This document shows positions 32,153 through 38,080 of a DNA stretch of 44,511 bases, piece after piece (position 1 is the stretch's first letter; each line of letters opens with the position of its first letter). This DNA comes from Butyrivibrio sp. (GTDB taxonomy: Bacteria; Bacillota; Clostridia; Lachnospirales; Lachnospiraceae). Under the pieces are notes generated by a model, which had not been told where the DNA came from, made no database searches, and was given only the letters and a program-made list of their open reading frames with translations. The stretch lies in contig JAFPVA010000196.1 of NCBI GenBank assembly GCA_017413105.1, forward strand, positions 1 through 44,511, in the 5' to 3' direction. Position numbers and translations under genes: made by a program.

Positions 32153-32317
32153 GTATTGATACATTCATCTGATTCAGTTATTCGGTGTTTTTGTGGCGGA
32201 GGAATTATTGCCATAATAAGCGCTACTTCGTATAAAGAGATATAAAAAACAAACTTAGTCAAATTGTGTCGATTGAAAAAAGAGTAACTTCTAAATAGAC
32301 AAAAGGAGGATATCATG

Positions 32318-32554
32318 ATGGAAGATAAGAACAGAGTAAATGATAATGAGTTAACTGCTGTTACAGGCGGAGCAGCAACAAAGGCTTCAGCTCCAAGATT
32401 CCAGGTAGGGGATAAGGTTACACTCATTGTTTATCCTGAGTTTGGAATTGGAACAATTGTGAATGTATATATGGGAGGCACTGGCTGGAACTGCACTGCA
32501 AGATTCGATTCTGGCATTATTGATGCTTCTGATATTGAGTTCATCCCTGCGTGA
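32318..32554 (+). CDS. small protein with double-glycine-type leader and SH3-like core
   Basis: The 78-residue product (ATG 32318; a tandem ATG at 32315 is possible; AGGAGG at 32304-32309) starts with a charged segment ending NELTAVTGG. This fits the E-L-x-x-V-x-G-G pattern at which C39 peptidase-transporters cut bacteriocin and NHLP-type leaders. The rest, about 58 residues, resembles a small beta barrel: FQVGDKVTLIVYPEFGIGTI ... ARFDSGIIDASDIEF. One Cys is present. There is no dedicated peptidase-transporter or modification enzyme nearby. It has its own terminator. Export by a transporter elsewhere in the genome is inferred. Confidence 0.7.
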   Translation: MEDKNRVNDNELTAVTGGAATKASAPRFQVGDKVTLIVYPEFGIGTIVNVYMGGTGWNCTARFDSGIIDASDIEFIPA

Positions 32555-32609: not shown

Positions 32610-32760
32610 GTAATTTCTAAAAGTATTATTAAAACTGGCGTAAATTCAACACGTAAATAAATATTCGTAATAACATTAAGATGTATCCTAAGATCAGTAT
32701 GTTTATAAAATGATAAAAGATGCGAAAATGCAACAAAAGAGAAAAAGGCTGAGGAAAAAA

Positions 32761-32970
32761 ATGGATGAAAAAACACAGTATTACAAATTTATTGTCGGTA
32801 GTGTCATTGTCAGACGAACCGGGCTAAAAATAGAGAAAATAGGGAAAAAAGGTGTGTGGGAGGATGCTTCACATATGGCATACCGCTTTATCCGGGATGA
32901 CGATATGCTTGTTGAGATTACAGAAGAGGAAGCTAAGGATCTTTTAGCACAAAGGGGAATAGATCTATAA
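32761..32970 (+). CDS. hypothetical small protein, 69 residues
   Basis: No family recognised. GAGG six bases before the ATG at 32761 makes this start better than the in-frame ATG at 32710, which has none. The sequence mixes a basic N-terminal half (FIVGSVIVRRTGLKIEKIG) with an acidic C-terminus (DDDMLVEITEEEAKDLL), with no membrane helix. It lies 30 bases upstream of the LysM gene on the same strand and may be co-transcribed with it. Confidence 0.6.
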   Translation: MDEKTQYYKFIVGSVIVRRTGLKIEKIGKKGVWEDASHMAYRFIRDDDMLVEITEEEAKDLLAQRGIDL

Positions 32971-33000: not shown

Positions 33001-33915
33001 ATGGGAAAAAGAACAAAACATTTGGTTTCAGTAGCATTTTTCATGGCTCTTTTAATTTCTTTTTTAGCACCATCTATACAGGTTCAGGCAAATGAATCTG
33101 CGACTGAGTATGCGGTACAAAGCGGCGACTGCCTCTATAAGATTGCCAAGAACCAGCTTGGAAGCGGAAGCAGATGGACTGAGATATTTGAGCTGAATAA
33201 GGACATTATAAAAGATCCTGCACTGATTTTTGTGGGGCAGAACCTTAAACTTCCGGGTGCCGCATCTGTAACTACAGTTGTCACAGCGGATACTTCTAAT
33301 GAAGCAGCTGCAGCCGGGCAGACAAACCCGGATGAGCAGAAAGAAGCTGACAAATACGCGCAGATGCTCTATGACGCAGCCCAAAAGGCTGAGCCGGCTG
33401 TTACTGCAGTTCTAAAGTCAATGGAATCAGATAAGGCTCACCTTGAGGGCTTGGATTACAGATTAAAATCAGTTGAGAGTACCAGCAGAAAGATTCTTTC
33501 TGATGCTAATGACGCTGAAATTTCTATTGAGGAGTCTGCGAAAGCTATAAAGGATTCCCTAAGGTATACCTTTGTAATTGATGATTCGGATTATGTTGAA
33601 ATGACTAAAAAAATCATGGATGCGCTTATTTCAAACGGTAATACTGTGCTTAACTTCAAGAACTTTTGGACCAATACGTCTAATCCTTATCAGGGAATAA
33701 ATATACAGCTTAAGGATAAAACCGGCGTTGTTTTTGAATTGCAGTTACATACCCCGACTTCTTACAACACCAAAGTGTTTGAGTCACATCAATATTATGA
33801 AATAGCAAGAAGCGAAACAGCAACAGAAGAGGAAAAGGCTGAGGCAAATAAGAAAATGGAAGAATTGTTTAAACGTGTTCCTGTTCCGGAAGGAGTAGAA
33901 AATCTTTCATATTAA
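33001..33915 (+). CDS. exported LysM protein with a RelA/SpoT-like domain
   Basis: 304 residues. A signal peptide (about 1-30, ending VQA) precedes one LysM domain (about 37-85: YAVQSGDCLYKIAK ... VGQNLKLP), an Ala/Glu-rich linker and a C-terminal domain (about 135-304). That domain follows the layout of RelA/SpoT nucleotide pyrophosphokinases: RLKSVESTSRKI (like the R-x-K-S-x-x-S-x-x-x-K element), KDSLRYTFVID (Asp185), YQGINIQL, FELQLHT (Glu246, as in E-x-Q-x-R-T) and SHQYYE. The usual YxSxH is changed to YQGIN. LysM predicts binding to peptidoglycan outside the cell, an unexpected place for an alarmone-type fold. Possible roles are an antibacterial toxin or a non-enzymatic wall protein. The domain call is by eye. 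Confidence 0.75.
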   Translation: MGKRTKHLVSVAFFMALLISFLAPSIQVQANESATEYAVQSGDCLYKIAKNQLGSGSRWTEIFELNKDIIKDPALIFVGQNLKLPGAASVTTVVTADTSNEAAAAGQTNPDEQKEADKYAQMLYDAAQKAEPAVTAVLKSMESDKAHLEGLDYRLKSVESTSRKILSDANDAEISIEESAKAIKDSLRYTFVIDDSDYVEMTKKIMDALISNGNTVLNFKNFWTNTSNPYQGINIQLKDKTGVVFELQLHTPTSYNTKVFESHQYYEIARSETATEEEKAEANKKMEELFKRVPVPEGVENLSY

Positions 33916-33971
33916 GGCGTCCGATTTGTGAACTTGAATTCTGATCTGTAAAGGGATTGGAGGTATATTTT

Positions 33972-34694
33972 ATGTTTATTGTAGCTATGGTTCTTACCGC
34001 CGTCTTAACATTTTTGTGGTTCATGCCCTTATATAGAAAGGCTGCAGGTCCTGACAGAGTTGGGAAAAAGCCTTTGATTACGGCATTTTTGCTTGGCTTT
34101 TTTGTGGATTTCATCGTGGCGCTTATCTTTCAGAGCCTTCTTGGATTGCTTTACAGATATGCAGGAATTGTGGATGGAAGCCTTGCCAAACACTACCTGA
34201 CAGCATTTATCTCATATGCTCTGATAGAGGAGTCGGTTAAGTTCTTCACAGCCCTGATTGTTTTGAAGATGTTTAAGATAAGGGGGGCTAAAAACTATAT
34301 TCTGGTCTTTGGCATGGTAGGGATGGGCTATGAAATTGTCGAAAGTCTGCTGTATGTAGCAAGCGCCGGAATTCTTGGCACATTCTTCAGAAGTGTTTTT
34401 GCACTTCATGTCTTCTGTCAGATATGGATGGGTATATTTGTATATCATGCGCATAAATGCAAGGAGCTTTCTGATAACAGCGGAGCTAAAAGGAATATGG
34501 CTATTGCCTTCTGTGTTCCGTTTTTGATCCATGGGATACATGATGCCTGTTCAATAGCATTTAGCTTAGGAGAAGGCCATGGCAATACCGGAGTGGCAAT
34601 CATGGTATGTGTTTTGTTGGCATGTCTTGCCATGGATGCTGTATTTGCAATAATCACTTTCAGAAAAGCGTTGAAAGAAATCAAAGAGACTTGA
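33972..34694 (+). CDS. PrsW-family intramembrane protease
   Basis: About 240 residues from the ATG at 33972, with GGAGGT seven bases upstream (the in-frame TTG at 33957 sits too early). Seven or eight membrane helices carry the family motifs: ALIEESVKFF (EExxK-like), GYEIVESLLYV (second Glu motif), FALHVFCQIW and IHGIHDAC (His motifs). PrsW proteases of the CPBP superfamily cut anti-sigma factors or process membrane peptides. It is 56 bases after the LysM-RelA/SpoT-like gene and 17 bases before mscS, so one transcript is likely. The substrate is unknown. Confidence 0.85.
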   Translation: MFIVAMVLTAVLTFLWFMPLYRKAAGPDRVGKKPLITAFLLGFFVDFIVALIFQSLLGLLYRYAGIVDGSLAKHYLTAFISYALIEESVKFFTALIVLKMFKIRGAKNYILVFGMVGMGYEIVESLLYVASAGILGTFFRSVFALHVFCQIWMGIFVYHAHKCKELSDNSGAKRNMAIAFCVPFLIHGIHDACSIAFSLGEGHGNTGVAIMVCVLLACLAMDAVFAIITFRKALKEIKET

Positions 34695-36031: not shown

Positions 36032-38080
36032 TTAGATATATACAATGTCGCTGACACTTCGTTCCTTGATGCTTCCTCCAGTAGTGGGATTGTTGACAAC
36101 ATATCCATTAAAGTACATTGTGGAAGATCCTCCGCCATCAAGGTTATAGGCTGTTTCAACGCCCAGTCCCTTCATGAAGGTTGCAAGTTCATAGAGACTA
36201 AGGCCTTCGCTCTCAGAAGTTCTTCCATCAGACACCACAAAAACAAAGTGGTTAGCATCTATGACGCCTATGGCGGTTCTTGGATTGCTTGCCTTTGCCT
36301 TGGCAACTTCGGCATTTTCATCAACGGTAACAGAGCTGTCTTCTACAAGAGCCGGGCCAAAGGAAAATGCCTGCCAAACTCCCCTTGAAACAAGTTCTTC
36401 GGCTGAATACTCGCTGTCATTTAAAACTTCCATTGTTCCATCGGCATAAATACATAAAACATCTGATCCGTTTGCGCTGTCGCGGTAGACAATTCCGTTA
36501 CGTATAACATATCCATTTTCCTGAACACCGTAGTAATCTCCGTTTATGGCTAGTACAGCATTGTTATTTTCTGCAATCGTAGAGGTTGTGGCAGTGACAT
36601 TTTTGCCGTAAGTGTCATTTGCAAATGCTGTCTTTAAGTACTGAGCGGAGGAGAGAATAATGTCTGCCACATATATTTTGGTGTCGTTCTGATAATATTC
36701 AGTTAATGTAATGCTATAGTTATCTGAACTTACAGTATTTTCGCCTGTATAGGGCTCTGAGGCATTAATACCGGATGAGCTTTCTGTGGTTTCTGAAGAA
36801 GTCACTGTTGCACCTTCAGATACATTTGTTCTGGAATGCTTCCTGCCGGAACGAGATTTGTGAGTTTCTGATTGTGTATTATCTATGGATTCTGTTAATT
36901 GAGTATCGCTGTCAGTCTGATCAGCGAACATGGACGTATTTATTTCTGTGGCATTGGAGTTGTAGCTCTTGCTTATAACAAAGGTATCGAGGGAAATATA
37001 AGTCGTAAATGCTACCAGGACAAAAGCTGAACATATAGCCCAGAGGTGTTTTTTCATATGATCTTGCCTGCCTTTCTTAAAAATATAACTGTGTTGTATA
37101 AAGTAACTGAGTACAAAAAGTGCTAGTTCGGTGATGATCTTTGCAGCATATGCTGTTAAACCCATTCCGGTAAGCAGCTCAAGGATAAATGTGTTTATTA
37201 TGAGTATTGCGAGTGCCAGAGCAGAGTATTTTATGGCAGAAGTCGCAACGTCTTTTTGAGATTTGAAAACAACTTTTCTATTGAGAGAAAAATTCAGAGT
37301 TCCACTGATTATACGAGCGAGGGTGTTTGCCACGATGAGTGAACCGGATATCGCAGATATCACGCAAAACAGTCCGTAATCAACAAGAAAACTTATAAGG
37401 GATGAAGCACAGAAGCATAGGATTTCTTTGTATATCTTTATAGAATCCTTAATGGGATCAAAGTGAGAACTCTCATTTTTTCCTATATAGACAGTCTTTA
37501 TCAATTCCTCTTTGATCTCTATTCCATGCTTGGGTAACTCCATGAGCATGTTCATCTCATATTCGTAGCGGCTTCCACATATTTGAAGAAGTTCCGGAAC
37601 CAGCTTATCACTGTATGCTCTAAGCCCTGTCTGGGTATCATAGACTATATTTCCGGTTGTTAGTCTGTATACAAAACGGGTAATAGCATTTCCGGCGCGG
37701 CTTTTAAACGGGACCTTTCCTTCCATTTTCCGGCTGCCTAGAATAAGGCATGAGCGGTTTGCTTCTGCTACAGATGCCACCTTAATGATATCTTCAAGTC
37801 TATGCTGGCCATCTGCATCTGCGTTGACTATAGTGTATGGTGCATCATAGGTGTTATAAATGTATTCAAGCCCTGTTTTTAGTGCTTCGCCTTTTCCCTT
37901 ATTTTCATTATGAATAAGTATTCTGGCATATCTGGCTGCGTCAGAAAACACCTTGTTAAAGGCCTCCGGGCTTCCGTCATTTACTATTATGATTTCAAAG
38001 CCTTCCTGATATAGGCCCTTAGAAACATCAATCATTTTTTCATCTGGCATGTATGCGGGAATCAGAGCAATTCTGTTCAT
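36032..38080 (-). CDS. triple fusion: GT2 glycosyltransferase, GtrA, phosphodiester glycosidase
   Basis: 682 residues in three parts. Residues 1 to about 215: family 2 glycosyltransferase (IIVNDGSPE, NADADGQHR, GSRKMEGKVPFKSR, DTQTGLRAYS), of the kind that charges undecaprenyl phosphate with a sugar. About 220-340: GtrA-type membrane domain with four helices (LISFLVDYGLFCVISAISG, GTLNFSLNRKVVF), which may flip the lipid-linked sugar. Then a further helix near 345-365, a Ser/Thr-rich linker and, from about 450, an extracellular NAGPA-type phosphodiester glycosidase (AINGDYYG, NPRTAIGV, NLDGGGSSTMYFNG). This suggests synthesis, flipping and trimming of a glycan phosphodiester in one polypeptide. 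Only the domains are seen; the pathway is inferred. Confidence 0.9.
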   Translation of the reverse strand: MNRIALIPAYMPDEKMIDVSKGLYQEGFEIIIVNDGSPEAFNKVFSDAARYARILIHNENKGKGEALKTGLEYIYNTYDAPYTIVNADADGQHRLEDIIKVASVAEANRSCLILGSRKMEGKVPFKSRAGNAITRFVYRLTTGNIVYDTQTGLRAYSDKLVPELLQICGSRYEYEMNMLMELPKHGIEIKEELIKTVYIGKNESSHFDPIKDSIKIYKEILCFCASSLISFLVDYGLFCVISAISGSLIVANTLARIISGTLNFSLNRKVVFKSQKDVATSAIKYSALALAILIINTFILELLTGMGLTAYAAKIITELALFVLSYFIQHSYIFKKGRQDHMKKHLWAICSAFVLVAFTTYISLDTFVISKSYNSNATEINTSMFADQTDSDTQLTESIDNTQSETHKSRSGRKHSRTNVSEGATVTSSETTESSSGINASEPYTGENTVSSDNYSITLTEYYQNDTKIYVADIILSSAQYLKTAFANDTYGKNVTATTSTIAENNNAVLAINGDYYGVQENGYVIRNGIVYRDSANGSDVLCIYADGTMEVLNDSEYSAEELVSRGVWQAFSFGPALVEDSSVTVDENAEVAKAKASNPRTAIGVIDANHFVFVVSDGRTSESEGLSLYELATFMKGLGVETAYNLDGGGSSTMYFNGYVVNNPTTGGSIKERSVSDIVYI

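Follow-up and report, generated by a model that had tools for sequence, protein, structure and literature searches.

The enzymes that produce alarmones, which are signals of starvation, normally work within the cell. Alarmone synthetases that are exported from the cell were described in November 2025 (PMC12691689). According to that paper, members with a Sec signal peptide are found mainly in Streptomyces and in Vibrio and Shewanella, and their purpose is left open: they might produce an extracellular signal or act as toxins that re-enter cells. Here we describe a gene of Butyrivibrio sp. (Bacillota; Lachnospiraceae) whose product has a signal peptide-like start, a LysM domain, a linker and a RelA/SpoT-type synthetase (SYNTH) domain, and we refer to this product as LysM-SYNTH. 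The gene lies on the forward strand at 33001..33915 of a 44,511-nucleotide stretch (contig JAFPVA010000196.1, assembly GCA_017413105.1; hereafter, the window) and encodes 304 amino acids. We interpret LysM-SYNTH as an alarmone synthetase that is exported and stays in the cell wall of its producer, and we assign this reading a probability of roughly 0.55. What is new here is the LysM module and a Bacillota group of signal-bearing synthetases.

The open reading frame (ORF) and its domains are confirmed as first described in an earlier note made from the DNA sequence alone. Judging from hydropathy and visual inspection, residues 1 to about 31 (33001..33093, forward strand) resemble a Sec signal peptide: a basic MGKRTKH stretch is followed by a hydrophobic core and then by VQA/NE, a plausible cleavage site as judged by eye. 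The best 15-residue Kyte-Doolittle mean is 2.69, starting from residue 8, compared to no more than 0.76 in the synthetase part. The LysM domain, residues 37-85 (33109..33255, forward strand), scores 31.4 bits against its Pfam profile (cut-off 20.9). The linker is poorly ordered in the predicted structure, where residues 89-104 fall below a predicted local distance difference test (pLDDT) value of 50. The SYNTH domain covers residues from about 110 to 304 (33328..33912, forward strand), as delimited by sequence and predicted structure; its model is confident from residue 111 onward (pLDDT 91-98 per block of ten), and thus the domain begins earlier than residue 135, where the note had placed its start.

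The RelA/SpoT landmarks in this domain reflect homology rather than chance. Its nearest solved structure, both by sequence and by fold, is SaEAS from Streptomyces albidoflavus, named in the title of entry 8vx3 as a secreted alarmone synthetase (PMC12691689): phmmer matched it at E 4.9e-17 over residues 119-303, and it was the top structural match of the modelled domain. LysM-SYNTH therefore has the SYNTH fold expected of an exported alarmone synthetase (EAS). The earlier description, in which a nucleotidyl-pyrophosphokinase fold of the RelA/SpoT type accompanies a signal and a LysM domain, holds up, and no different fold, which the note had named as counterevidence, was predicted. The NCBIfam model XopAD (NF041399) matched residues 102-302 at E 4.7e-37, through the last 200 of its 2133 positions and far under its whole-protein cut-off of 2000 bits, and the C-terminus of PHROG 7625 matched residues 118-302 at E 9.6e-27. 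The Pfam RelA_SpoT model (PF04607), suggested in the note for comparison, did not report LysM-SYNTH at E values up to 1 and so gave no match over its curated cut-off, and a scan of the genome with this model at E 0.001 matched six other places and not this gene. Because RelA_SpoT misses this branch, its SYNTH proteins may be under-annotated in Bacillota. Elsewhere in the same genome, two frames of about 350 residues (L005 and L006, on contigs C107 and C161) match RelA_SpoT through the second half of the profile only.

In SaEAS, D121 is the residue that was inactivated, and R124, K154, N169, E182 and Q184 are among the ATP-binding positions (PMC12691689). In our alignment, these residues correspond to D185, R188, N218, N234, E246 and Q248 of LysM-SYNTH, respectively; five of the six are retained, and K154 is replaced by Asn218. 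Conservation was assessed in a 45-row alignment (A2) of LysM-SYNTH, its closest relative L007 (described below) and 43 of 57 viral loci, from which near-copies and the other viral loci had been removed by hand. D185, R188, E246 and Q248 are present in all 45 rows and Asn234 in 43; thus, the loss of Asp185 and Glu246 in homologues, named in the note as evidence against the fold, was not observed. The column of residue 218 varies, with Lys in 12 of the 45 rows, Glu in 11, Arg in 9 and other residues or gaps in 13, so that Lys at this position is not universal in the wider family. Among nine rows compared in this column, Lys is present in seven (L007, L128, L130, L131, L132, L133 and L138), Glu in L135 and Asn in LysM-SYNTH. 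Lys220 is retained in LysM-SYNTH and found in 41 of the 45 rows of A2.

The earlier note had left activity open on account of an altered YxSxH motif. This motif, syn3, is indeed altered and reads YxGxN in LysM-SYNTH, and SaEAS has YKGLN. GxN marks adenosine 3'-pyrophosphokinases and SxH marks RelA/SpoT homolog (RSH) enzymes (PMC12226406). By these signatures, the branch has YxGxN as its own version of syn3, which is not a sign of decay; the true departure from SaEAS is residue 218, and it is Asn218 that raises doubt instead. Catalytic activity is likely but not certain. Because SaEAS accepts both ATP and GTP (PMC12691689), the GxN signature cannot decide between these substrates.

Searching the GTDB genome collection once with the complete protein revealed a single relative, L007, encoded on an uncultured Lachnospiraceae contig. 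It is 56% identical to LysM-SYNTH over residues 2-304, its LysM domain scores 27.2 bits, above the Pfam cut-off, and the order LysM-linker-SYNTH is the same, with a less certain signal. We then used partly overlapping genome sets, searching a SYNTH alignment (A1) in 79 genomes of the genus, 392 of the order, 391 of the class and 398 of the phylum, and the full protein in 299 family genomes. Among the rows and frames read from these searches, no second genome had LysM and SYNTH together. Two of the 79 genus genomes matched, the other one through L140, a MuF-domain protein. In the family, 62 genomes matched, nearly all through the LysM part, and SYNTH matches beyond the gene itself were present in two (G239, and G144 twice). 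The order search matched 11 genomes, of which five gave weak matches with E values of at least 7.6e-5, and the weak matches L044, L045, L047 and L048 were left out of the protein-level reading. Six genomes matched in the class, two through fragments. Ten genomes matched in the phylum, and seven of these, with eight genes, belong to a single family (f135).

The short SYNTH proteins of this phylum, mostly from f135, are L128-L136 (genomes G1056, G1161, G1169, G1246, G1292, G1336, G1356 and G1377). Of the eight genes of f135, seven have, by our own reading, a hydrophobic segment before SYNTH, and L136 has no clear one. The f135 proteins are stand-alone, span roughly 225-311 residues from the first Met and have no LysM as far as they were read; they look Sec-exported and are candidate Sec-exported synthetases. 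A separate set of SYNTH frames, 227-228 residues long, occurs in four species of genus g299 of the same family as the Butyrivibrio gene (L039-L042); these have no evident signal or MuF part and might be what is left of MuF prophage genes. Carriage on a mobile element was considered and rejected: none of the 80 plasmid records that matched the full protein covers 80% of it. No viral contig with the full protein was found.

In a maximum-likelihood tree built from 62 SYNTH domains, with a midpoint root and with L134 removed by a motif filter, LysM-SYNTH pairs with L007 at 100/99. This pair joins, at 98/94, five stand-alone proteins whose N-terminal segments are hydrophobic; L135, the sixth row labelled as Sec, was placed elsewhere on a long branch. 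None of the six MuF-labelled rows falls inside the seven-member LysM/Sec group, where MuF labels were given to L009, L043, L122, L123 and L127 by length and reading, and a MuF domain was confirmed by Pfam in L010 and L140 only. These placements indicate that the exported Bacillota SYNTH forms are kin, a claim that stops short of a single origin for all exported forms. The surrounding set of 22 rows (88/97) includes the Streptomyces homologue and 14 rows from viral contigs with other N-termini. Because the deepest forks are weak (74/80), the root is a midpoint root and these 14 viral rows are nearby, it is possible that the ancestor of the SYNTH domain was phage-borne. That the gene itself is a phage gene was an idea raised by tblastn, as the phage matches are head proteins; we rejected it, since Pfam matched no MuF domain in the protein and, in the tree, the two LysM proteins group with stand-alone proteins that bear a signal.

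The surroundings of the gene were inspected for an immunity partner, which the earlier note had proposed to look for. Thirty bases upstream lies an 86-aa ORF (32710..32970, forward strand) that matched no family at an E value under 0.09 in Pfam, NCBIfam, PHROG or PADLOC. Among 150 family genomes, it was present in one, namely its own, with no relative in the other 149, and no counterpart was seen among the ORFs beside L007; conceivably, it might still be an immunity or antitoxin partner of LysM-SYNTH. The L007 gene is flanked by 810-aa and 483-aa ORFs, unlike the LysM-SYNTH locus, and no immunity candidate common to the two neighborhoods was seen. A single HD_4 alarmone hydrolase was found in the genome, within a 759-aa, Rel-type frame, the one that gave the best match to RelA_SpoT. 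No adjacent antitoxin or hydrolase, as in the layout of toxic small alarmone synthetases (toxSAS), was recognised at the locus by family searches, and a PADLOC search of five proteins for defence systems returned zero matches.

Farther out, the genes that flank this locus (transporter, MscS and glycosyltransferase) have matches of ~69-81% DNA identity in other genus members; therefore, the contig fits the genus. The intervening stretch, which comprises a 79-aa ORF, the 86-aa ORF, LysM-SYNTH and a PrsW-like gene, has a single DNA match in the genus, 72% over the 79-aa ORF in G638. This ORF (32315-32554, forward strand) has only weak family matches (Pfam, NCBIfam, PHROG) and an N-terminal NELTAVTGG stretch, which resembles leader peptides of the double-glycine type. 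Directly downstream of LysM-SYNTH is the gene of a PrsW-like membrane protease (33957-34694, forward strand; Pfam E 6.3e-14), which more likely starts from the ATG at 33972, preceded by GGAGG; PrsW-like proteins were detected in 19 of 31 genus genomes, its own included, the others being at most 34% identical among the matches listed. A 682-aa protein encoded at 36032-38080 on the reverse strand looks, as read by eye, like a glycosyltransferase joined to a membrane part resembling GtrA and, at the C-terminus, to a part resembling phosphodiester glycosidases.

How might LysM-SYNTH work? The Sec signal peptide would export the protein, and LysM would bind peptidoglycan and retain the enzyme at the surface. 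With ATP as the donor, the SYNTH domain would then pyrophosphorylate a purine nucleotide at its 3'-OH, giving (p)ppApp and/or (p)ppGpp, an activity suggested by the observed fold and most of the active-site residues. By analogy with SaEAS and VpEAS, nearby lysing cells would supply the nucleotides, and export would keep the harmful activity outside the producer's cytosol, so that no immunity gene would be needed. The loci of SaEAS and VpEAS are isolated and without immunity genes, export rendering these proteins harmless, and these published Sec-exported members (PMC12691689) are matched here in that no conserved immunity candidate was seen. On the other hand, several points weigh against an exported, wall-held synthetase. 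Export is predicted by eye, and the first codons of L007 are out of frame with the remainder in its assembly. Nucleotides are scarce outside cells. At residue 218, LysM-SYNTH has Asn in place of the Lys found in SaEAS, in L007, in five proteins of the Sec type and in L138, the homologue on a Streptomyces plasmid, and the 22-row set of the tree is mixed in its N-termini. In addition, SYNTH relatives include phage and injected toxins (PMC12691689, PMC12226406).

The earlier note offered a toxin against neighbours or a new extracellular role; the latter fits the exported alarmone synthetases (PMC12691689), whereas the surroundings lend the former no support. As a toxin, the protein would be held at the wall by LysM, and SYNTH would enter neighbouring cells and drain their ATP or GTP like Apk1/Apk2. 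This is rather unlikely in our view, but it stays in consideration because related domains are warheads of several delivery systems, namely type VI, type VII and type III secretion system (T6SS, T7SS and T3SS) and MuF-phage proteins (PMC12691689, PMC12226406, PMC3482391). The phage head-protein matches agree with it as well, as does the layout of polymorphic toxins, in which an N-terminal anchor precedes a C-terminal toxin and LysM is among the adhesion domains (PMC3482391). However, no delivery domain was matched in LysM-SYNTH (Pfam, NCBIfam, PHROG), no conserved immunity candidate was seen at its locus and that of L007, and SaEAS failed to inhibit B. subtilis, S. venezuelae and S. coelicolor (PMC12691689). 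We therefore prefer an enzyme that acts on released nucleotides at the producer's surface. The replacement of an ATP-contacting Lys by Asn218 could also mean a catalytically weak or dead derivative serving as a nucleotide binder, surface sensor or decoy, but this is doubtful: D185, R188, E246, Q248 and Lys220 are all retained, and Lys at 218 is not a fixed feature of the wider family. Pyrophosphorylation of another 3'-OH, for example at tRNA ends as in PhRel2/FaRel2-type toxSAS, seems quite improbable. Finally, the genome comes from a fragmented bin of 327 contigs with a contamination of 7.28, and an assembly artefact might have fused two separate genes, one for LysM and one from a phage; we consider this next to negligible, as the domain order recurs in a separate assembly, that of L007, and the flanks match the genus.

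A wall-tied form, if true, would favour action at the surface, and it offers a system for testing this. Going further, we tentatively suggest that Bacillota may have their own lineage of Sec-exported synthetases, some Lachnospiraceae ones being wall-fixed, that would serve as a surface lysis detector or signal source using the nucleotides of lysed neighbours and not as a delivered toxin. The main text of PMC12691689 does not contain the words LysM, Firmicutes, Bacillota, Clostridi- or Lachnospiraceae, although its 1,369 supplementary sequences may include this protein or its kin. Among the papers listed by searches on LysM with such enzymes and on exported or extracellular synthetases, we found no description of a LysM alarmone synthetase; of those listed for LysM, only PMC3482391 mentions both "LysM domain" and "alarmone synthetase."

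Compared with known systems, LysM-SYNTH is closest to the Sec-exported SaEAS (8vx3) and VpEAS (PMC12691689), but here LysM sits between the signal and SYNTH, and the host is a Lachnospiraceae-type member of Bacillota; with SaEAS it shares ~25% identity over the structural alignment and differs by Asn218 in place of Lys154. Like Apk2, the adenosine 3'-pyrophosphokinase toxins of MuF phages (PMC12226406), it has the RYT and GxN signatures; however, it has no MuF domain (Pfam, E up to 1), no IapK- or Aph1-like neighbour was seen, its syn4 is LH and not YH, and the LysM pair lies outside the MuF-labelled rows in the tree. No PAAR domain was matched by Pfam, in contrast to the T6SS effector Apk1/Tas1 (6ox6), whose structural match is weaker than that of SaEAS. 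The similarity to XopAD is confined to the C-terminal part of that model and includes none of its SKWP-repeat part. Finally, the signal-like start, the LysM domain, GxN instead of SxH and the silence of PF04607 distinguish LysM-SYNTH from RelP and RelQ, small alarmone synthetases of the cytosol.
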